A DNA stretch of 24,459 nucleotides, taken from a virus. Below the pieces are notes generated by a model. The model was not told the origin of the DNA. It ran no database searches and was given only the letters and a program-made list of their open reading frames with translations. Positions 3,140 through 19,945 of the stretch are shown here, piece by piece. The translations under genes were made by a program, and so were the position numbers. Location: positions 1-24,459 of IMG/VR virus record IMGVR_UViG_3300030107_006338. One strand, written 5' to 3'. Position 1 is the first letter of the stretch; every line of letters starts with the position of its first letter.

Positions 3140-3922
3140 TTAATTTAATTTATTTGATACTAATTTATTTATTCTCTCTGCTGCAGATTTGGATACTAAT
3201 ATGTGTTCTATGGATCTATTTGCAGATGGATTATAGAACTCAACCATTAAACAATGTGCACAATCATAGTCATATTCTTGACAGTCATGAAAGCAACAAA
3301 AGTTATACTCTTGTGCATAAAATTCATCATATGTATTGTCTATTGTTATAACAATCTCTTCTTTACGATCATTAACATACATTGGAATATGTACCTCTGA
3401 CCAAGCATGTCCTCCATCAGCTAATATATAAGATTCAACTCCCATATGTCTTAGCAATGAAACAAATGCCATTTCTCTTTCTGCACACCATCCAAATGTA
3501 TAAAAGTCTATTTCTTTTTCTCCAACCTCACACTCATAAGAGTATTGAGGTTTATTTGATACAAGATCAGACAAGAATACTTCAGGTGTTCTATCTCTTA
3601 ATACTACATTATCAGGAGCAGAGATATAATCTCTTGAATTGCTCCAAAAGTATGGTATTTCTAAGATACCACTAGCACTACAATCCATTGATTCAGTAGT
3701 AGTAAATAGTTTATGTAAGAAATATAATTTATAAAATGTACCTTTATTGTGTGTGTTATTCTTATCAATTCCATGTTGATCACAAAATAAATTATATACT
3801 TCTTTATAACTTTGTTCTATCTTGATTGAATTCTCTGAATATAATAAATCAAAGAAATTAACCACATTTATTTGTGCAAATCCATTGACACAAATAAATA
3901 AACTAATCATTATTGTTTTCAT
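3140..3922 (-). CDS. secreted transglutaminase-like (papain-fold) protein
   Basis: A 260-residue exported protein. Residues 1-17 (MKTIMISLFICVNGFAQ) form a signal peptide with a typical Bacteroidota cleavage site after AQ. The catalytic core follows the transglutaminase-like Cys-His-Asp order: FGWCAERE with C146, GGHAWSEV with H172, and ITIDNTYDEF with D195. A Cys-rich loop follows (CCFHDC, then CAHC, roughly residues 209-224), which may form disulfides or bind metal. Members of this superfamily include transglutaminases, peptidases and cell-wall amidases, so the substrate could be a host envelope protein or peptidoglycan. It is preceded at 16 bases by a lipoprotein gene. The fold call is good; substrate is unknown. 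Confidence 0.78.
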   Translation of the reverse strand: MKTIMISLFICVNGFAQINVVNFFDLLYSENSIKIEQSYKEVYNLFCDQHGIDKNNTHNKGTFYKLYFLHKLFTTTESMDCSASGILEIPYFWSNSRDYISAPDNVVLRDRTPEVFLSDLVSNKPQYSYECEVGEKEIDFYTFGWCAEREMAFVSLLRHMGVESYILADGGHAWSEVHIPMYVNDRKEEIVITIDNTYDEFYAQEYNFCCFHDCQEYDYDCAHCLMVEFYNPSANRSIEHILVSKSAAERINKLVSNKLN

Positions 3923-5603: not shown

Positions 5604-5879
5604 ATGACAAAGAAAATAAACTTTAAACCTTATGGACAATGGATATTGCTCCCTAATCCCACACAATTAGAAACAGATTCTGGTATTATTTTAGATGAAA
5701 AGACTGCAAGGTCCCAAACTACAAATGTATTAAAAGTAGTAGCTTTAGGGCCCGAATGTAAATTCTGTAAAGTTGGTGAAACTGTAATGGTGGATCCTAC
5801 TATAGAGGCTAGGGTATTACATTTAGATGAGGGAGAATTTATATTAGTAGCAGAATATCAGATATTAGGTAAATTCTAA
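5604..5879 (+). CDS. GroES-like co-chaperonin (Cpn10)
   Basis: 91 residues, close to the usual 95-100 of GroES. The order of elements fits the family: an N-terminal strand (FKPYGQWILLPNP), a mobile-loop region ending in SGIILDEKTA (residues 26-35, matching the canonical GGIILP), VVALGP after it, then KVGETVMVDP and the C-terminal EGEFILVAEYQILGKF, equivalent to EYLIVRESDILAIL. It would cap host GroEL to help fold a phage protein, probably the capsid protein, as T4 gp31 does. First gene of the right arm, with its own promoter. The next gene's ATG overlaps its stop by one base. Confidence 0.8.
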   Translation: MTKKINFKPYGQWILLPNPTQLETDSGIILDEKTARSQTTNVLKVVALGPECKFCKVGETVMVDPTIEARVLHLDEGEFILVAEYQILGKF

Positions 5880-8226: not shown

Positions 8227-8398
8227 AATGAAAATAGATTGGATAAATTCTTGGAAAAGTGGTAGAAAAAGTAATATCTTTGAAGTTACTTTTAGGTTAG
8301 GACAACTAACCGTACTTGAAATTTATATTAATCCTGATTTAAAAGAAAGCAGGTTTATGATATTAAATTTTGGGTTTGAACTTTGGAAAGAAAAATAA
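8227..8398 (+). pseudogene. small gene split by a +1 frameshift (programmed or broken)
   Basis: The ATG at 8227 reads MKIDWINSWKSGRKSNIF and then meets TGA at 8281-8283. Moving one base forward at the TTTT run (8278-8281) continues without a break as EVTFRLGQLTVLEIYINPDL and on to TAA at 8396-8398, giving a coherent 56-residue beta-rich protein. The downstream part has no ATG near its beginning. TTT-TGA is like the RF2 shift site CTT-TGA, so a real +1 frameshift is possible. A one-base assembly error in a T-run, or a dead gene, is equally compatible. Confidence 0.5.
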
Positions 8399-8399
8399 T

Positions 8400-8771
8400 A
8401 TGTATAATTACAACGCAAAATGCACTAGAGTAGTAGATGGTGATACTATCGACGCTGAAATAGATCTTGGATTTGATATTAAAGTAAGTAAAAGAATTAG
8501 ACTTGCAGGTATTAATGCCCCAGAATCTAGAACTAGAAATAAGGTAGAAAAAAAATTAGGGTTGGCCGCTAAAGAAAAATTAATAGAAATATTAGAAGGG
8601 GCGGCTAATTGTTTTGAATTAGAGTCTCAAGAGCTAGGTAAATATGGTAGAGTTCTTGGAAAATTACATATAGATAGAATTGCAGGAAAAGATGTAATAA
8701 CCAAAGTTTGTATAAATGATGAATTGGTAAAACTAGGTTACGCAACAGAATATGATGGAGGAAAACGATAG
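8400..8771 (+). CDS. thermonuclease-like nuclease (SNase family)
   Basis: 123 residues from the ATG at 8400, which lies just after the preceding gene. The staphylococcal nuclease signature is clear: VVDGDTIDAE (D13, equivalent to SNase D21), KRIRLAGINAPESR with R34 and E42 at the spacing of R35 and E43, and KYGRVLGKLH with R84 equivalent to R87. The second calcium ligand (D40 in SNase) is N39, so metal binding may differ. No signal peptide, so it would act inside the cell, perhaps on host DNA or in packaging. Its 3' end overlaps the next gene by 20 bases. Confidence 0.88.
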   Translation: MYNYNAKCTRVVDGDTIDAEIDLGFDIKVSKRIRLAGINAPESRTRNKVEKKLGLAAKEKLIEILEGAANCFELESQELGKYGRVLGKLHIDRIAGKDVITKVCINDELVKLGYATEYDGGKR

Positions 8772-10989: not shown

Positions 10990-11063
10990 GGTCACGTAGC
11001 TCAGCTGGATAGAGCATCTGCCTTCTAAGCAGACGGTCACAGGTTCGAATCCTGTCGTGATCA
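10990..11063 (+). tRNA. tRNA-Arg (anticodon UCU)
   Basis: 74 bases folding as a full cloverleaf. Acceptor GGTCACG pairs with CGTGATC (one G-U), discriminator A, D-arm GCTC/GAGC, anticodon stem TCTGC/GCAGA with loop CTTCTAA, T-arm ACAGG-TTCGAAT-CCTGT. The 3' CCA is not encoded. UCU reads AGA, by far the commonest Arg codon here, so it supports phage translation. It starts one base after the TerL stop. Confidence 0.97.
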
Positions 11064-11072
11064 CAATGTAAG

Positions 11073-11167: not shown

Positions 11168-13546
11168 ATGTATTTAGGTTCAAATAAAATCCCAAAACAA
11201 AAATTACCCCTTAGTAAAAAGACTAAGAAATGGAGAGAAGAATGCGTAGAGGCATATATAGATCTTTCCACAGCTGGTTACAGTGAAAGACGTGACTGGC
11301 TAAAAACTTTATATGATTATTATAACGGTGTGATCGATGAAGCAGATTATAGATACGTACTCAAGCCTTACGGTAAAACAAGGCAAAATTTCCCCTCTAA
11401 GATGCGTAACTATCCTATCATTAAACCTATTATAGATCTGTTACTCGGAGAGAAGTCTAAAAGACCTCTCAATTACACCGTTACCGTACAAAATTCTGAT
11501 GCAATTACTATTAAAGAGCAGGCGAAATCAGAATTATTAATGAAAAACTTTCAACAACAGTTTATGAACCAGGCAAATGCAAGAGGAGCTAAAACAGGAG
11601 TTCCTACTCAGCCAGTTCAGCCGCCTGCTCACATAGCACAAATGTTTGAAAATAACTATGTGGATAATAGAGCTATAAAAGGTCAACAGGCTATGAATTT
11701 TATAGAACAGCACCAAGAGATATACGATAAGCTGCAAAAAGCTTGGTTTCATTTTTTAGTGGCTGGAGAAGTATATACTTGGAGAGGAGTTCGTAGCTCA
11801 GAACCTTTTTATGAAATATTAAATCCTTTAGATATTGATTATGATAAAGATCCAGATGTAGAGTTTGTAGAAGATGGGGATTGGGCTTTAATTAGAAAAT
11901 ATGTTCATGCATCTACAATTATAGATCATTATAGAGATTATTTATCTGATGAAAATATATTAAGATTAGAAGAACCTGAACATGCTAGTATGGATTCATA
12001 TCTAACTATGGCTAATAGGTCAGATGATAGAGAATTGTATAGAGAAAGATTAATTGAAGTAGTTAGTGTGTATTGGAAGAGTAGAAAAAGAATAGGATTT
12101 TTAAATTATATAGATCCAGAAACAGGAAGTTGGGAGCAGCAAAGAGTCGATGAAAAATTTAGAATGCCTGCAGAAATGAAACAAACAGGAGCTAAAGTAG
12201 AATGGGAATGGATTAATGAAGTATGGGAAGGTACAAGAATAGATGGTAATTTATATATTAAAATGGAACCTTGTACAAATCAAAGGACTTCCATGGATAA
12301 CCCATCTAAATGTAAACTCCCAATTAATGGAAGAAAATATTCAGATCTAAATTCTAAAAATATATCTATGGTGTCTCTTGGAATACCATATCAATTAAAT
12401 TATAATATTTATAAATATAGATTAGAATTAGCTATAGCAAAAAGTAAAGATATAATTGCTCAATTTGATATTAATATGATCCCTAAAAAATGGGATATGG
12501 ATAAGTTTATGTATTATGTAGAAGGTACAGGTATTGCTTGGGTAGATTATAATAAAGAAGGAATACAATTATCTCCTCAACATCAAGGAGTATTAGATTT
12601 GTCTATTAAAACAATTGAGCAGTATATAGTTCTTTTAAATTCTATAATGGAAGAATGGGAAAAAGTATCTGGAGTAAATAGACAAAGACAGGGTATGGTT
12701 GGAACATATGAAGGTAAAGCAACATCTCAACAAGCTATTGTACAATCATCTCATATTACAGAAGATCTATTTAGAAAGTTTTCTAGATTAGAACAAAGAG
12801 ATATGCAAGCATTATTAGACTATTCTAAAGAAGCATGGTTAACAGGAAAGAAAGGAATGTATGTAATGTCGGATGGAACTAAAGAGTTATTTGATCTTGA
12901 CAGTCTTCAACATATGGAATCAGAATATGGAATATTCTTATCAGATTCTGGACAAGATCAAGATAAATTAGATATATTAAAACAACTTGCTCAATCTATG
13001 GTTCAAAATGGAGTACCTGCTTCTACTATTGCAGAAATGGTTGATGCAGATAACTTTAGTCAAATTAAAGAAAAGATTAAAGGTGCTGAAAAAATGCAAC
13101 AACAATTAGCACAAGCTCAACAAAAAGCAGAAGCTCAACAACAAGAAGCTCAAAGACAACTTGAAAGGGAAAGAATAGAAAATGAAAATATGAATCAAGA
13201 AAAAGATAGAGAGACTAAAATACGTGTTGCAATGATACAGGCTGAAGCTAAGATGATGGATAATGCATATGATTCAGAAAAATCTGTAAGAGATGCTAGT
13301 ATTAAACAAAGGCAAAACGAATTAAAGACAGAAGATATAGTAGAAAAAGCTAGATCTAATAGAGCAAAAGAAGATTTAATAAGAGAAGATCAAAGATTAA
13401 AAGAAGAAAAAGAGGGTTCTGATAAAAGAGAAAGATCGGCAGATAGAAGACAGGCTAAAGAAGATAAAGAAAAAGATATAGAAATTAAAAAAGAAGATCA
13501 GGCTATAAAAAGAAAGGCAGCTGCAAACAAACCTAAATCTGAATAA
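11168..13546 (+). CDS. portal protein (crAss-like)
   Basis: 792 residues, in the size range of crAss-like portals. Near residues 79-100 it reads NYPIIKPIIDLLLGEKSKRP, characteristic of this family, and the middle carries the long mixed core that forms the dodecameric DNA channel. A glycine-poor, Gln/Lys/Glu-rich coiled coil fills residues 640-792 (QQQLAQAQQKAEAQQQEAQR and beyond), likely reaching into the capsid or holding cargo. The first 150-200 codons use more CGT, GCG and CTC than the AT-rich remainder. Its stop overlaps the next ATG by one base (TAATG). Head-tail vertex gene following TerL and the tRNA. Confidence 0.9.
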   Translation: MYLGSNKIPKQKLPLSKKTKKWREECVEAYIDLSTAGYSERRDWLKTLYDYYNGVIDEADYRYVLKPYGKTRQNFPSKMRNYPIIKPIIDLLLGEKSKRPLNYTVTVQNSDAITIKEQAKSELLMKNFQQQFMNQANARGAKTGVPTQPVQPPAHIAQMFENNYVDNRAIKGQQAMNFIEQHQEIYDKLQKAWFHFLVAGEVYTWRGVRSSEPFYEILNPLDIDYDKDPDVEFVEDGDWALIRKYVHASTIIDHYRDYLSDENILRLEEPEHASMDSYLTMANRSDDRELYRERLIEVVSVYWKSRKRIGFLNYIDPETGSWEQQRVDEKFRMPAEMKQTGAKVEWEWINEVWEGTRIDGNLYIKMEPCTNQRTSMDNPSKCKLPINGRKYSDLNSKNISMVSLGIPYQLNYNIYKYRLELAIAKSKDIIAQFDINMIPKKWDMDKFMYYVEGTGIAWVDYNKEGIQLSPQHQGVLDLSIKTIEQYIVLLNSIMEEWEKVSGVNRQRQGMVGTYEGKATSQQAIVQSSHITEDLFRKFSRLEQRDMQALLDYSKEAWLTGKKGMYVMSDGTKELFDLDSLQHMESEYGIFLSDSGQDQDKLDILKQLAQSMVQNGVPASTIAEMVDADNFSQIKEKIKGAEKMQQQLAQAQQKAEAQQQEAQRQLERERIENENMNQEKDRETKIRVAMIQAEAKMMDNAYDSEKSVRDASIKQRQNELKTEDIVEKARSNRAKEDLIREDQRLKEEKEGSDKRERSADRRQAKEDKEKDIEIKKEDQAIKRKAAANKPKSE

Positions 13547-16500
13547 TGTTAACAAACGAACAGAAATTAGATATAATGAAGCAAGCCTTTGAAGAAGGCT
13601 ATGATGGTTTTATGAGCGATCTTTGGGCTCAAGCTGATCCTCAAGAAGCAAGGAATATACAAACAGATCCTTCTTACCCTCCTTTATCCTCAACAAGTCC
13701 AACTGTACCAAATATAAAAAATGAATCTAGTCCTGCACCAATATCTAATATGTCTGCAGAAGAAATTCCTAATTCCCAAAGTTTAGTACAAAGTTATGAG
13801 TCTGCAAATATAGGAGAAATGCCTATGGGTGCAAATGTCCCAATGCAACTAGATGAACCAAACAGTTATAAAAAAGGTGGGTATAAAGTAAGTAATTTAA
13901 TAGGATTTAAACCAGATCTTACAGATATAAGTCCTAGAAATTATTTAAAGAATTATAAAAGATACGAAAGTGGGGGAGTACAAAATTTTATACATAAAGA
14001 TGATTATAAATTAGAAGATAACAAAATTGATCATTTAGAAAAAGTAAAACAGGCAACTTCACAACAACAGCAAAGAACTTATGATCCTTTAGGATTTGCA
14101 GGATACTATTATCAATCTCCTAAACATAGAGAACGATTAGAAAAAAGAGGTTATTCAGATGAAGAAATAGAACAAAGATCTGAATTTGTATCAGGATATG
14201 GATTAAGTAAAGGCCCAAAAATAGTAGATAGAACTGGTACTTCAGGAAGTAGAGCTTACCCGAAAAAAAATAAAATTGTAATGGACTTGGAGACAGATAG
14301 AGCAAGAGCTCCAAAAGTTACATACGATGAAATATTAGCTCATGAACTTGGTCATTTATCTACAGGATATACACCTTTAAAGAAAAAGGACGTTAAAGAA
14401 ATTGTAGATAGAAGTCAAGTACCTATTAAAGACGAACAAAATGATTATTTTGCATCAGAAATAAAATCTGATTTAGACTCAATTAGGTTTATGTTATTTA
14501 ATGCAGGAATTTATGATGCGGGTAAAGAAGATTTTGATTGGTATGATCTTAACCAAGCTAAAGAAAAATTAAAAGAGTCTCCTACATTTAGAAGAGTAAT
14601 AGATACTTTTGAAGATAATGATTTTATGTGGTTGATGAATAATATAGCAATGGAGGATTTAGAAATTCAAGATGGATTAGCTTTGAAAATGCCAAAGACA
14701 AGAGCTAGATTTGGGGGTAAAAGAAAGAAATATTTTGAAGGGGGAATATCAGGAGAAACAAGTGCACCTGTAGAGCAAATGTCTGATGACCAATTAAAAG
14801 CAATAATAATTGGTGAAGACTTTCACGATAGTTTTTCTGTGGAAGGACAAAATGCGCAAAGGCAACTTGACGCAAGATATGGAGAAGGTAATTGGGAAAT
14901 TGTAAATGCTGCTAATTTTAATTTAAATCAAACAATTCATCCACAAGGTGGGCCTGAAGGTTTTATAGGGCCAATCGCAAATAGAGGGGATTACAATCAT
15001 TACTGGGATTCTGAAGCACATCCAGGTACAGGACCAACTAATCAACCAGCAATAGATTTCTTTAGTGGTTTATCAGATGTTTGGCCTGAAAATATGGGAC
15101 CTAATACAGATATTATACTTTGGGGTCATACTTGGGAGCCGGGTACGGGAGCTAGTGATGAAGCTGCTTTTATGGGACATCCTTATATTGAAACAAAAGA
15201 AGGTGTAGATCCTTCAATAATGGATCCAGATAGTTGGGCTGAATTTATGGGAAGTCAACTAGAAGAAGATTGGGCAGGATGTATGTATTTTGGAACTTGT
15301 GGGGGAGGGGCAATAGGAAAAGGATCAGGTGTTCCTGTTAAGGGCTCTACATGGGAAGATGATATTAGTCTTACTGGATTAACAACCCCTATGCAGGACT
15401 TTACTACTCAGTTATCTGAGTTACGACCAGGAGATTTATATGGTTCAACTTATTATGCGCCAACAGAAACATGGTATGGGACTAAACTTAGTAATTATTA
15501 CCCATTTAAAACATTTGGATTTGACCCAACTACAAGAGCTGATGATGATGCTTTTGCAGGTACTATGTTTGATCCTTTAGAAAAAACAATGTCTTCAGTA
15601 TATGATGATGCATATGAAGTAGGAAGCCCATATCAAAAAATTACATTACAAGAACCTGGATTTGGTTATGATGGTTCAGAAGTTTCTCCTTTAGATATTC
15701 AATATTCTCAAACAGGTACCACGGAACTTGGTTATGATTATCCTGTGAAAAAGAGGTATAGTCCTACAAGTGGGTATGGTGAATCTTTCCCATTTTATGG
15801 TTCTTATGGGTATACTGATTTTCATAGGAGTGTCAGTGAGGCTTACAATTCTTTTCATCACAATAAACCGTATTATTTTGAAAGAACTGGTGGTCCAAGA
15901 AAAAAATATCCTCATGGAGGATTTCATAATCCGCTTTCTGCCCGAACTTTAATAGGCCCAAATCTTACAAAACCCATAGTTAATGCAATAAGTAATATTT
16001 TTTTTCCAGGCGCAGATAAATTTCATAATTGGACAAAAGAAAAAGGACTTACAACCCCAACTACAAGAGGAGGAACTTTTAGACCAGGTGTTGGGGGAAC
16101 ATATGAATCTCATCCGCTGAGACAACAAATAAATTTACCAGATTATCCTGTAGATGGTAGTAAATCAGAAATAGATCAGTGGTATGATACTGCAGGTCAT
16201 GAGTGGTTTCATCATCTTCAAGCACAAACGGGAAGATTAGCACAAAAAGAAATAAGACAAAATCCAGTAGCTTTAAAAGGTAAAGATATTGTAGGGCCAA
16301 TTAGTAAAGAGACTCAAGATTTACATTTTGGTGCAAGAGGTACTGATTTTGATCATGAAGTAGAAGAAATAGAAAACGATCTTATGGAATCACTTAGTAT
16401 TCCTGAAGCTTCACTTCTTAGCGAGAATCAAAGGATTGCATTATTAAACAATAAAACTCCAAGATGGGCACACAGATTGGCAGGACTGCCTAGTTTTCCT

Positions 16501-17226
16501 TCAAGATCAGGACAACATACTAATATACGTAATGAGGCTAACCAAAGATTGTATGAACATTCTCATACAACAGAAGGAGAGGCAAGAGATGTGGAAGAGG
16601 ATATAGGTGGAAATCAAGTCTTTAGAAGTTATTTTGATAAATATCATAAACCAAATGTCATAGCAGATTTTGAAAATCAAGCTCCACTATCAGCAGCAAA
16701 TGCTTATGTAGGAAATATTAGTGATACAGATAGAATAAGAAATGAAGTGTGGGGACAATTTGTTAAACCGGGAAATTTATATAATCCTAATATAACTAGA
16801 AAGTATTATAATGATGGTGGACCTCGTGATTTTAAAAATATAAAAGAGGCTTCTAAAGTTTATGCTGATAATTGGGGAATAAAGAATAAACAAGCATTAA
16901 ATATCTTAAAAGATATGAATTACAATGTTGGTGATACTGTTATGTTTTCTAGTTTAAGGGGTCCTGGTGGAGATAGCATGTTAAGAACACAAAATGAGCT
17001 TAATACGTATGATTATATGACAGAGTTATATCCTGAAATTATAGGTCCTGATGGAGTTTATGATATGGATTTAATGAATCAAAAAATGAAAGAGCATGGG
17101 TATAAAGATGAGTATGGTAATATTAAGAATTATAAAAGATGGAGTGTTGGAGATTTGAAGCTTCATCTATCAAAACTTTCTAAAACAGGTAATTTTAGAA
17201 ATGGAGGACTAAGAAGAAAAAAATAA
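13546..17226 (+). CDS. giant multi-domain virion-type protein with two HExxH metallopeptidase motifs
   Basis: 1226 residues, translated directly after the portal (one-base overlap). Residues 1-110 are Pro/Ser/Gln-rich and flexible. Around 266-270 lies AHELGHLSTGY, and around 885-890 AGHEWFHHLQAQTG: two HExxH zinc-peptidase-like motifs in separate regions. A middle section (about 400-790) is rich in Gly, Trp and Tyr and holds DIILWGHTW (H528) and GCMYFGTCGGG (C579, C585). Short Gly-Gly linkers with a Lys and a nearby aromatic recur at 111, 143, 399, 791, 1091 and 1220 and divide the protein into blocks. Between portal and scaffold it is likely packaged or part of the virion; enzymatic roles are inferred. 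Confidence 0.7.
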   Translation: MLTNEQKLDIMKQAFEEGYDGFMSDLWAQADPQEARNIQTDPSYPPLSSTSPTVPNIKNESSPAPISNMSAEEIPNSQSLVQSYESANIGEMPMGANVPMQLDEPNSYKKGGYKVSNLIGFKPDLTDISPRNYLKNYKRYESGGVQNFIHKDDYKLEDNKIDHLEKVKQATSQQQQRTYDPLGFAGYYYQSPKHRERLEKRGYSDEEIEQRSEFVSGYGLSKGPKIVDRTGTSGSRAYPKKNKIVMDLETDRARAPKVTYDEILAHELGHLSTGYTPLKKKDVKEIVDRSQVPIKDEQNDYFASEIKSDLDSIRFMLFNAGIYDAGKEDFDWYDLNQAKEKLKESPTFRRVIDTFEDNDFMWLMNNIAMEDLEIQDGLALKMPKTRARFGGKRKKYFEGGISGETSAPVEQMSDDQLKAIIIGEDFHDSFSVEGQNAQRQLDARYGEGNWEIVNAANFNLNQTIHPQGGPEGFIGPIANRGDYNHYWDSEAHPGTGPTNQPAIDFFSGLSDVWPENMGPNTDIILWGHTWEPGTGASDEAAFMGHPYIETKEGVDPSIMDPDSWAEFMGSQLEEDWAGCMYFGTCGGGAIGKGSGVPVKGSTWEDDISLTGLTTPMQDFTTQLSELRPGDLYGSTYYAPTETWYGTKLSNYYPFKTFGFDPTTRADDDAFAGTMFDPLEKTMSSVYDDAYEVGSPYQKITLQEPGFGYDGSEVSPLDIQYSQTGTTELGYDYPVKKRYSPTSGYGESFPFYGSYGYTDFHRSVSEAYNSFHHNKPYYFERTGGPRKKYPHGGFHNPLSARTLIGPNLTKPIVNAISNIFFPGADKFHNWTKEKGLTTPTTRGGTFRPGVGGTYESHPLRQQINLPDYPVDGSKSEIDQWYDTAGHEWFHHLQAQTGRLAQKEIRQNPVALKGKDIVGPISKETQDLHFGARGTDFDHEVEEIENDLMESLSIPEASLLSENQRIALLNNKTPRWAHRLAGLPSFPSRSGQHTNIRNEANQRLYEHSHTTEGEARDVEEDIGGNQVFRSYFDKYHKPNVIADFENQAPLSAANAYVGNISDTDRIRNEVWGQFVKPGNLYNPNITRKYYNDGGPRDFKNIKEASKVYADNWGIKNKQALNILKDMNYNVGDTVMFSSLRGPGGDSMLRTQNELNTYDYMTELYPEIIGPDGVYDMDLMNQKMKEHGYKDEYGNIKNYKRWSVGDLKLHLSKLSKTGNFRNGGLRRKK

Positions 17227-17304: not shown

Positions 17305-18453
17305 ATGGACAATAACAAAAAAATCAATGTCGAAGACATATCTTTTGATGATATGCTAGACGGGGGAATAGAAGATGTTGTAGATGCAACAGAAGCGCCC
17401 CAAGTAGAAAAACCAGTTGAAAATGTTGAAGAAGCTAAAGCACAACCTGAGGAGAATTCTCTGGATGATGATGTTAAAGCTAAACAGCAGGAAGACGCGA
17501 AACAAGAACAGGTACTTGCGGAGGCAGAAATACCGCAACCAGCGCAAGAAACAACTTCTGAAAAAACTTCTGAAGTTAAAAATGAAGAAGGAAATGAAGA
17601 GGTGGATGACTCAGTAATTGGTCAAGTATTATCTTCTTTAGGATATGAAACTGACAATAAATATGAGGACACTCCAGAAGGATTGACTAAAATGGCGCAA
17701 GATGTTGGGTCTCAATTAGCGGAAGAGCAATTAGATACCCTATTTAAAAAATTTCCACTTGTAGCAGATCATTTACAATATGTAATGAGTGGTGGAAACA
17801 GTCAAGATTTTATGGCTGTTAATGATCCTAGATCAGATTTTTCTAGAATGAGAGTTCAAGAAAAAGATTTAGCCGGTCAAAAATATGTTCTTTCTGAATA
17901 TTTTAAATCAAAAGGACATGACAATAAGTTTATTAATGAACTTTTGGATGATTACCAAGAATCTGGTAAACTTTTTGCTAAAGCTCAAAATGCTCAAAAG
18001 TCTTTAGCTACTGCACAACAGCAGTATAAAAAGCAAATGTTGGCACAACAACAACAAATGCAACAACAACAAATGCAAGAGCAAAATAAATTTTGGAATG
18101 GTGTTTATAACACTATAGATAAATCCAAAGAATTTCAGGGAATACAAATCGCTGAAAGAGAGAAAGGGAAGTTTTTTGATTACCTTTCAAAACCTGTAAC
18201 CAAGGAAGGTTACACGCAAAGAGACATGGACTATTCAAAAGCGGATATGAATGTTAAACTTGCAATGGACTATTTAATGTATAAGGGTTTTAACCTGGAT
18301 AAATTGATTGACAGAAAAGCTAGAACTAAGAGTACACAATCTCTTAAGGATAGAATTAAAGGACATCAAGAAACTGTTAAAAGTGCAAGAAAAGCAAGTA
18401 AAACTTCAAATAAAGCGGTTGATATAGAAGATTTAGACTTAAGTCTCTTTTAA
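17305..18453 (+). CDS. capsid scaffolding protein
   Basis: 382 residues directly before the major capsid gene, the usual scaffold position. The N-terminal 110 residues are acidic and disordered (EDISFDDMLDGGIEDVVDAT, and many Glu/Gln/Pro). A middle helical part follows (LAEEQLDTLFKKFPLVADHL), then a Gln-rich coiled coil near residues 230-260 (QQQYKKQMLAQQQQMQQQQ) and a basic C-terminus (RIKGHQETVKSARKASKTSN) suitable for binding the capsid shell. No protease motif. Charge layout, coiled coil and neighbour make the call, not a sequence match. Confidence 0.65.
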   Translation: MDNNKKINVEDISFDDMLDGGIEDVVDATEAPQVEKPVENVEEAKAQPEENSLDDDVKAKQQEDAKQEQVLAEAEIPQPAQETTSEKTSEVKNEEGNEEVDDSVIGQVLSSLGYETDNKYEDTPEGLTKMAQDVGSQLAEEQLDTLFKKFPLVADHLQYVMSGGNSQDFMAVNDPRSDFSRMRVQEKDLAGQKYVLSEYFKSKGHDNKFINELLDDYQESGKLFAKAQNAQKSLATAQQQYKKQMLAQQQQMQQQQMQEQNKFWNGVYNTIDKSKEFQGIQIAEREKGKFFDYLSKPVTKEGYTQRDMDYSKADMNVKLAMDYLMYKGFNLDKLIDRKARTKSTQSLKDRIKGHQETVKSARKASKTSNKAVDIEDLDLSLF

Positions 18454-18481: not shown

Positions 18482-19945
18482 ATGGCATTAAATCAATCAG
18501 GTAAGAACATTAGCGTTGTTAAGACGTTTTATAATGATCAACAAATGACAGACATGAATAGTTTGTCAAACGCCTTGATGTCTAAGCCTACTGAATTATC
18601 TCCAATCATCACACACTTGGCTGGTAGAGACGATAAAAGATTCCCCCTATCATTTTTGACAGAAGGAGTTGGTAACGTTAAGTCAATGGATAGGCTGGAG
18701 TATGAATATCGTGTTAGAACTCATACGAGGAAAACACGACCAGTGCAAGAGACATTAAGTGACACAACAGGAGTAGGAATTGGAGGCGCAACCTTCGAAT
18801 TAATATTTCCTGATAAGTGGTTTGTATTTCCATACGTACTTGTAAACTCAAAAGGTGAGCAAGCTCGTATAATGAAAGAACCTACTCCACAAGGAGATCA
18901 AGGTTACAAATATACTTTACAATTAGTTAACCCATCAACTACAGCTTCGTTATCTTCAGGATATACGCAAGGTGATTTATGGGCACAAATGTATGCTCCA
19001 GTAGGAGTTGATTTCTCTAGAGGAAACGCTTCAAACTGGGAAAGTCCAGGAATGGTAAGAAACAAAATTGGTACAGTAAGAAAATCATATCACATGTCTG
19101 GTCATGCACGAGACTATGTTGTTGAGTTTGGATTACCTACTAAAGGAGGAAAGACTACTAAACTTTGGATGGATTACGAAGAATATCAACACATGCTTAA
19201 CTTTAAAGAAGAATGTGAGATGTTCTACTGGTATGGACAAAAAACATATAACGGAGCAGGTAATACTGTAATGAAAGATGAAAATGGTCAACCAGTTATT
19301 GTTGGTCCTGGTCTACTAGAACAAATAGTAAATAAGGAAACTTATTCTTCTATGACAGAGACTAAGATTAAAAACATTATTGGGGATTTATTCTACGGAA
19401 TGACTGATTCTCAAAATAAACAAGTTACGCTTTACACAGGAACAGGTGGTATGCGTGAATTTGATGAAGCTTTAAAAGGCCACTTTCAAAGCACTTCTTC
19501 TTCGGGAGGTAATTGGAAAATAGGTGGAGAAAATAGATTCATTACAGGTTCAGGCAGAAACTTGGGAATGACAGGGTACTTTACTTCTTATGAGCACATT
19601 GACGGACATACAGTAAATGTAGTTAAACTACCTTTATTTGATCATGGTCCTGTTGCTCAAGCAAGAGATAGACACCCGGTTACTGGATTCTCACTTGAAT
19701 CATACAGAATGGTATTTGTTGATCAATCAAATTATGATGGTCAAGCAAACCTTCAAATGCTTTCTAAAAAAGGAAGAGAAATGATGAGATGGTGTGTAGC
19801 TGGTAGTGTGGTACCTAGAGGATTCGATTCTTCAAGTTCAAGAGCTTCTGATGTTGACGGCGCGTCTGTCCACATGTTAAAGACAGCTGGTATTGTTCTT
19901 AAGAGATTTGATACTTCACTAGATATCGAGTGTACAGCGTCATAA
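18482..19945 (+). CDS. major capsid protein (crAss-like)
   Basis: 487 residues, as in crAss-like capsid proteins with an HK97 fold. It follows the scaffold gene and is encoded with higher GC and less skewed codons than its neighbours, as expected for the most abundant virion protein. Recognisable stretches are the N-terminal MTDMNSLSNALMSKPTELSP, the central EECEMFYWYGQKTYNGAG and KQVTLYTGTGGMREFDEAL, and RMVFVDQSNYDGQANLQM near the end. No long N-terminal pro-domain is obvious, so it may assemble uncleaved. The GroES-like protein encoded upstream may help it fold. The A-rich leader has no Shine-Dalgarno. Confidence 0.87.
   Translation: MALNQSGKNISVVKTFYNDQQMTDMNSLSNALMSKPTELSPIITHLAGRDDKRFPLSFLTEGVGNVKSMDRLEYEYRVRTHTRKTRPVQETLSDTTGVGIGGATFELIFPDKWFVFPYVLVNSKGEQARIMKEPTPQGDQGYKYTLQLVNPSTTASLSSGYTQGDLWAQMYAPVGVDFSRGNASNWESPGMVRNKIGTVRKSYHMSGHARDYVVEFGLPTKGGKTTKLWMDYEEYQHMLNFKEECEMFYWYGQKTYNGAGNTVMKDENGQPVIVGPGLLEQIVNKETYSSMTETKIKNIIGDLFYGMTDSQNKQVTLYTGTGGMREFDEALKGHFQSTSSSGGNWKIGGENRFITGSGRNLGMTGYFTSYEHIDGHTVNVVKLPLFDHGPVAQARDRHPVTGFSLESYRMVFVDQSNYDGQANLQMLSKKGREMMRWCVAGSVVPRGFDSSSSRASDVDGASVHMLKTAGIVLKRFDTSLDIECTAS

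Follow-up and report, generated by a model that had tools for sequence, protein, structure and literature searches.

The question raised by this locus is what a 1,226-residue protein with two separate HExxH motifs does next to the portal gene of a phage. The protein, termed the cassette protein here, is encoded in a 24,459-nucleotide stretch of viral DNA (the window; positions 1 to 24,459 of IMG/VR record IMGVR_UViG_3300030107_006338). A sequence-only reading had placed HELGH (residues 266 to 270) and HEWFHH (residues 885 to 890) in one open reading frame (ORF) beside the portal, and both were found there, 619 residues apart. Our analysis indicated a marine crAss-like phage in which this gene probably codes for a polyvalent virion cargo protein that would be packaged and delivered to the host. 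A virion-type protein that could act after injection had also been proposed from the sequence. That a virion protein enters the host is the likeliest interpretation, since one of the modules has a homologue among the virion proteins of a cultured crassvirus, annotated from tandem mass spectrometry (MS/MS); packaging, delivery and catalysis are each predicted. The sequence-only reading understated the locus, which is a hypervariable modular slot and not a fixed two-peptidase protein, and it did not pick up on a further putative peptidase module, the third, or on the Lys/Arg-GG linkers that recur at the module boundaries.

The cassette protein is split by this recurrent basic double-glycine motif into modules A, B, C and D, which follow a conserved N-terminal region. 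The features, in window coordinates, are as follows.

13546 to 17226, plus strand: modular cassette protein, 1,226 residues, ATG start
13546 to 13869, plus strand: conserved N-terminal region, residues 1 to 108, common to relatives at the slot
13867 to 13884, plus strand: first linker, YKKGGY, residues 108 to 113, with Y108, G111 and G112 invariant over 51 aligned relatives
14074 to 14661, plus strand: module A, gluzincin-type zinc peptidase by fold prediction and conservation, residues 177 to 372
14341 to 14355, plus strand: HELGH of module A, residues 266 to 270, with H, E and H invariant in 11 relatives
14458 to 14460, plus strand: Glu305, predicted third zinc ligand of module A, invariant in 11 relatives, in the long helix after the HExxH helix
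14713 to 14745, plus strand: linker GGKRKKYFEGG, residues 390 to 400
14785 to 15645, plus strand: module B, putative clan CD-like cysteine peptidase with invariant His and Cys, residues about 414 to 700
15127 to 15129, plus strand: His528, candidate catalytic His of module B (IILWGH)
15298 to 15300, plus strand: Cys585, candidate nucleophile of module B (YFGTC)
15889 to 15921, plus strand: linker GGPRKKYPHGG, residues 782 to 792
15928 to 16800, plus strand: module C, HExxH module with relatives in L001 and L054, residues 795 to 1085
16198 to 16215, plus strand: HEWFHH of module C, residues 885 to 890, with H885, E886, F888, H889 and Q892 kept in L001 and L054
16573 to 16587, plus strand: EGEAR, residues 1010 to 1014, candidate third-ligand segment of module C, invariant in three sequences as T-x-E-G-E-A-R
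16798 to 16821, plus strand: linker RKYYNDGG, residues 1085 to 1092, after which the module is replaced in L001
16822 to 17190, plus strand: module D, residues 1093 to 1215, with no family match and absent from the nearest relative, L001
17203 to 17223, plus strand: C-terminal GGLRRKK, a tail of the same type as in relatives

Relatives of the locus were obtained by portal scans of IMG/VR, one query yielding 530 relatives and another 485, and the slot could be read in about 100 distinct cases. HExxH occurred at 0.397 per 1,000 residues in 106 distinct portal-adjacent proteins, compared to 0.050 in the remaining ORFs of these loci and 0.020 after shuffling, so that the slot was enriched ∼20-fold over shuffles. 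At the shuffle rate, the chance of two such motifs within 1,226 residues is roughly 3e-4, and hence the pair in the cassette protein was not attributed to chance. The surroundings of the two motifs were unrelated, as the sequence-only reading had held; a relationship between modules A and C was rejected by profile-profile comparison (probability, 0.2%). Searches of Pfam, NCBIfam and PDB sequences with the whole protein produced no match above chance, no credible match was detected for modules B, C and D singly among 50,697 phage records, and none of these three had a family match. The N-terminal region had a ratio of nonsynonymous to synonymous substitution rates (dN/dS) of 0.14 against L001, and Pfam family DUF192 was matched at this start region in 29 of 51 relatives, mostly below the curated cut-off, the window copy being shortened.

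The available computed tests all identify module A as a gluzincin-type zinc peptidase, with catalysis and a bound zinc being predicted. All 11 of the diverse module-A sequences that were aligned, the phi14:2 virion protein included, retained H266, E267, H270, E305 and R314 at identities to the window copy that fell to 26 to 30%. The AlphaFold2 model had a predicted local distance difference test (pLDDT) score of mostly 80 to 90 over model residues 73 to 265 and a layout of three short strands, the HExxH helix and then a long helix with E305. The predicted zincin fold, with HExxH and a conserved Glu in a later helix as the putative third zinc ligand, is that of a gluzincin. The same layout of strands, HExxH helix and long helix has been described for the metallopeptidases of polyvalent proteins (Iyer et al. 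2017, PMC5512222, cited here from part of its text). With VIA-align, 50 of 50 rows for the module-A model were zinc metallopeptidases or zincin-fold proteins, the best with a Z of 7.5 and 3.9 Å over 155 residues; a Z below 8 is modest when taken alone. A Foldseek search of the same model against the PDB detected none at an E of 0.001, and the top rows were nonetheless zinc peptidases. Module A had a dN/dS of 0.21 against L001 and matched Cellulophaga phages phi17:2 and phi4:1 in tblastn (E, 1e-15). No relative of module A or of the portal was found in bacterial and archaeal genomes.

The relatives also bear on module C, which, on the basis of residue conservation, is a second probable zinc peptidase. 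An alternative is that module A is the sole peptidase, with a second HExxH that arose by chance or has no activity, in an unrelated domain. The model of module C had a pLDDT of 37, no family or structure match was obtained, and only two relatives are known (L001 and L054), which would fit such a motif. However, both relatives retain the HExxH, and the L054 module, which is only 22% identical and has HEVFHD at the HEWFHH site (the conserved form thus being HExxH), has also kept Q892 and T-x-EGEAR; a chance match is unlikely for this reason. Module C was furthermore under purifying selection (dN/dS, 0.53), and the ∼20-fold enrichment of the motif in the slot likewise argued against an accidental occurrence. 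A protein with module A as its only peptidase was thus considered rather unlikely, and EGEAR is a plausible third-ligand segment. The original proposal of two metallopeptidase-like modules was upheld for A through its fold and the conserved E305, while for C it extends to the retained HExxH and a candidate Glu, in a region modelled at low confidence.

Between these two lies module B, in which a His and a Cys (LxxH and YxGxC) were invariant in five sequences at identities down to 19 to 21%. The model had an alternating strand-helix order, with the His and the Cys each after a predicted strand, in low-confidence regions. A strand-His, strand-Cys order is that of the clan CD (caspase/gingipain-like) peptidases, some of which cut after Lys or Arg. 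No match was detected in Pfam. We regard module B, with moderate confidence, as a predicted clan CD-like cysteine peptidase. Scans of IMG/VR with the module C and B profiles, and a profile search of the 49 records behind the loci, produced no new relatives.

The sequence-only reading knew of no described counterpart to such a protein, and this claim has to be withdrawn. Counterparts came from a search by structure of viral models, which pointed to phi4:1 and to phi14:2, a crassvirus in culture. Protein g070 of Cellulophaga phage phi14:2 (YP_008242294.1; 593 residues) likewise has two HExxH motifs (HEFTH at 234 and HEFIH at 461), its second HExxH module matches the module-A profile at 6e-13, and GenBank lists it as a virion protein from experimental MS/MS proteomics. 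No module B or C was detected in g070, unlike in the window protein, and its gene is flanked by a muzzle-type gene on one side and, on the other, by the cargo and RNA-polymerase genes that come next, whereas the window gene follows the portal. The HEFTH module of g070 was unsupported as a relative of module C (probability, 1%) and was weakly related to module A (77%). Two HExxH motifs in one chain (HEFTH and HELNH) were also present in phi17:2 gp42 and in the structural/tail protein of phi4:1 (739 residues), whose C-terminal module is homologous to A. These proteins carry an N-terminal phage tail lysozyme (Phage_lysozyme2), which is absent from the window protein, and have no window-type Lys/Arg-GG linkers; both phages have 145-kb genomes and are not classed in Crassvirales.

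Proteins with several zincins have been published more widely. The polyvalent proteins of PMC5512222 have, as is predicted for the window protein, several unrelated enzymatic domains per chain, with zincins the commonest, and are likewise encoded near virion genes; ADP-ribosyltransferase (ART) and lysozyme are partners there as in the slot. They have one to five zincin domains, more than one being present in about 8% of the zincin-bearing proteins. The window protein is encoded among the virion genes of a phage with a portal and a terminase, and of the at least two unrelated enzymatic domains that define the class, one is secure (A) and two are predicted (B and C). The main text of PMC5512222 does not mention crAss or Cellulophaga, and a fixed post-portal slot, the linker pattern and a clan CD-like module were not found in the part of that text cited here.

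Comparison of the relatives demonstrated that the gene after the portal is a module-exchange site and among the most rapidly reshuffled spots in these phages. Between the portal and the next conserved gene, the slot gene encoded 143 to 1,553 residues among 70 complete cases, and nearly all slot proteins had the conserved start followed by Y..GG. Behind the start, 89% of pairs with portals 80 to 85% identical shared less than one fifth of their sequence, and module content varied even at 95 to 100% portal identity. L001, the closest relative (98% portal identity), carries A, B and C, with other sequence in place of module D that begins directly after the RKYYNDGG linker; in L085 (92% portal identity) and L086, which carry A and B, other sequence takes the place of module C; and modules were swapped between L079 and L081, the portals of which were reported as 100% identical. 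Such variability at near-identical portals is as expected for host-facing effectors. Other contents of the slot were Phage_lysozyme2 (3e-15), SLT, ART-PolyVal (3e-14; in L064, with no such match in the window protein itself) and further HExxH domains, and two HExxH in one chain were also present in L089 and in the second ORF of L149. The L132 slot protein has HEIGGH, an HExxxH form, at residue 450, where the homologous module of L130 has HEFGH; HExxxH forms have been reported for polyvalent metallopeptidases (PMC5512222). A C-terminal motif of the KCKYGCW type follows the basic GG tail in 11 of the 106 slot proteins (L020, L050, L076, L078, L103, L116, L127, L132, L136, L137 and L139).

The linkers were nearly confined to the slot. 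The motif [KR]GG[hydrophobic][KR] occurred at 1.70 per 1,000 residues in slot proteins, compared to 0.05 in the remaining ORFs of these contigs and 0.035 after shuffling. Ends of shared segments fell within 5 residues of a linker in 14% of cases, compared to 3% at random, and most ends lay elsewhere; judged from these alignments, the linkers are preferred joints. A constraint at the DNA level, as a recombination signal, was rejected, as just a mild codon bias was detected (first Gly GGT in 61 of 107 versus a 36% background), and linker conservation is hence mainly at the protein level. What is new at this locus is the fixed, portal-coupled module-exchange slot together with its linker pattern; no description of either was found in open-licence literature on crAss-like phages and polyvalent proteins (PMC10172136 and the cited part of PMC5512222), and open-licence papers on crAss-like phages, including PMC10172136, contained no mention that we could find of a peptidase at the post-portal slot.

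The same linkers raise the alternative of a self-processing polyprotein, in which the peptidase modules, especially B, would cleave the Lys/Arg-GG linkers, either as the particle assembles or once delivery has occurred, and so free the modules. The very basic composition of the linkers, their near-confinement to the slot and the excess of shared-segment ends beside them are consistent with this possibility, as are relatives in which two ORFs, their ends linker-like, make up the cassette, and autoprocessing by zincins has been proposed for polyvalent proteins (PMC5512222). Many relatives, however, have linkers but neither an HExxH nor a B module, and the proteins' own peptidases therefore cannot be generally required. 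Self-processing is attractive as an idea but was judged unlikely. A wider form of the idea, in which the portal-coupled locus encodes self-processing polyproteins, the basic GG linkers serve as both recombination joints and cleavage sites, and zincins and a caspase-like module free swappable injected enzymes, is quite improbable; if true, it would make the locus a phage counterpart of modular effector cassettes. The split cassettes are at L149:10913-13255, L035:7270-8868 and L097:12172-14442; the second ORF has a linker-like head (e.g., MKKRKITKSRRRLYQTGG), and two end in KKLKKARRKLY.

The partners of module A and the other slot contents raised a further possibility, that of an envelope-breaching periplasmic set in which peptidases and muramidases open the peptidoglycan and periplasmic or membrane proteins for passage of the DNA, with no cytoplasmic effector role. 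Module A is fused to Phage_lysozyme2 in phi4:1 and phi17:2 and, in the 1,108-residue protein of L088 (L088:4167-7493), to Glucosaminidase, PG_binding_1 and CHAP. The contents of the slot itself include Phage_lysozyme2 and SLT, and one relative matched the PHROG "internal virion protein with endolysin domain." These lysozyme, glucosaminidase and CHAP fusions appear to favour action in the envelope, whereas the ADP-ribosyltransferase in one slot appears to favour the cytoplasm for at least some modules; most modules, moreover, have no peptidoglycan signature. An exclusively periplasmic role is possible but on balance doubtful.

The neighbouring genes identify the phage and define the position of the slot. 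The late gene block comprises genes for TerL, the portal, the cassette protein, a 382-residue protein and the major capsid protein, of which those flanking the cassette are listed here.

11168 to 13546, plus strand: portal protein (PHROG 6547 portal; E, 1.5e-125), upstream neighbour coupled through TAATG
17305 to 18453, plus strand: 382-residue protein, the next gene kept in relatives, possibly scaffold-like given its place before the capsid gene
18482 to 19945, plus strand: major capsid protein (Pfam Crass_capsid; E, 8.5e-81)

The phage is crAss-like because its major capsid protein matches Crass_capsid, and the crassvirus-type capsid protein, portal and terminase place it in Crassvirales; TerL matched PHROG 6681 at 2.4e-133, and the portal matched 152 phage records, the matches listed being crAss-like. 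Coupling with the portal gene, claimed from the sequence, was confirmed by direct reading of TAATG at 13544 to 13548, in which the portal stop and the cassette start share one base. The number of promoter-like and terminator-like sites was no higher than in shuffles. Elsewhere in the window, a tRNA-Arg gene (anticodon tct; 10990 to 11064, plus strand) lies between the terminase and portal genes, and three ORFs were noted by eye: a transglutaminase-like ORF of 260 residues with a signal-peptide-like start and a GWCAERE...GGHAWSEV pattern (3140 to 3922, minus strand), one of 91 residues resembling a Cpn10/GroES-type co-chaperonin (5604 to 5879, plus strand) and one of 133 residues resembling a staphylococcal-nuclease-type (thermonuclease) protein (8370 to 8771, plus strand).

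This gene position is also that of PhiCrAss001 gp21, directly after the portal (PMC10172136), and the cassette protein could accordingly be the positional counterpart of this capsid-bound head fibre, or a capsid decoration, with a conserved N terminus and a variable remainder as in gp21. However, gp21 (97 residues) gave no significant BLASTP match, which argues against membership in its family; the module content is enzymatic, and where homologues of module A occur, the annotation of the protein is tail or virion structural, with a lysozyme domain in two cases. A head fibre is very unlikely. PhiCrAss001 also has a cargo protein, C1 (gp45), at a gene position matching that of phi14:2 g070, and gp45 and gp46 are stored in the head and tail and thought to be ejected (PMC10172136). 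No sequence similarity between gp45 and the window protein was detected, and neither gp45 nor gp46 has an HExxH; the window protein was not assigned to the C1 family, as there was no homology and its gene follows the portal and not the muzzle gene.

Overall, a polyvalent virion cargo protein was the reading that we favoured. In addition to the MS/MS-annotated homologue, it is supported by the position in the late operon between portal and capsid genes with TAATG coupling, by the fusions of module A to lysozyme, Glucosaminidase, PG_binding_1 and CHAP, by the ART-PolyVal, Phage_lysozyme2 and SLT modules in the same slot of relatives, and by the predicted zincin fold of module A. Several points weigh against it. 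The evidence for packaging, as far as sequence comparison goes, is homology of one module, which is at another locus in the phages concerned; phi14:2 has no such gene after its portal; the cassette protein has no similarity to PhiCrAss001 gp21 or gp45; and modules B and C have no confident folds. The readings weighed here overlap and their probabilities do not sum to one, envelope action and self-processing both being compatible with virion cargo. As a cargo protein, its conserved N-terminal region, made with the portal, would probably recruit it into the assembling head or a portal-proximal cargo space. Modules A to D may then exit via the portal and tail, either ahead of the DNA or together with it, and the ejected peptidases may cut host proteins with envelope, defence or housekeeping functions as infection begins. 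The T4 internal proteins with capsid targeting sequences, which are much smaller, have a comparable arrangement of a conserved targeting start with a variable injected effector behind it.

Crassviruses rank with the most abundant of known phages. The linker motif offers a simple way to locate module boundaries, and because phi14:2, with its two-HExxH virion protein, is in culture, the workings of crassvirus virion cargo can be tested in the laboratory with a phage and its host. A single fixed slot in which the enzymes differ between near-identical portals is a catalogue of payloads that probably matches host-specific barriers.

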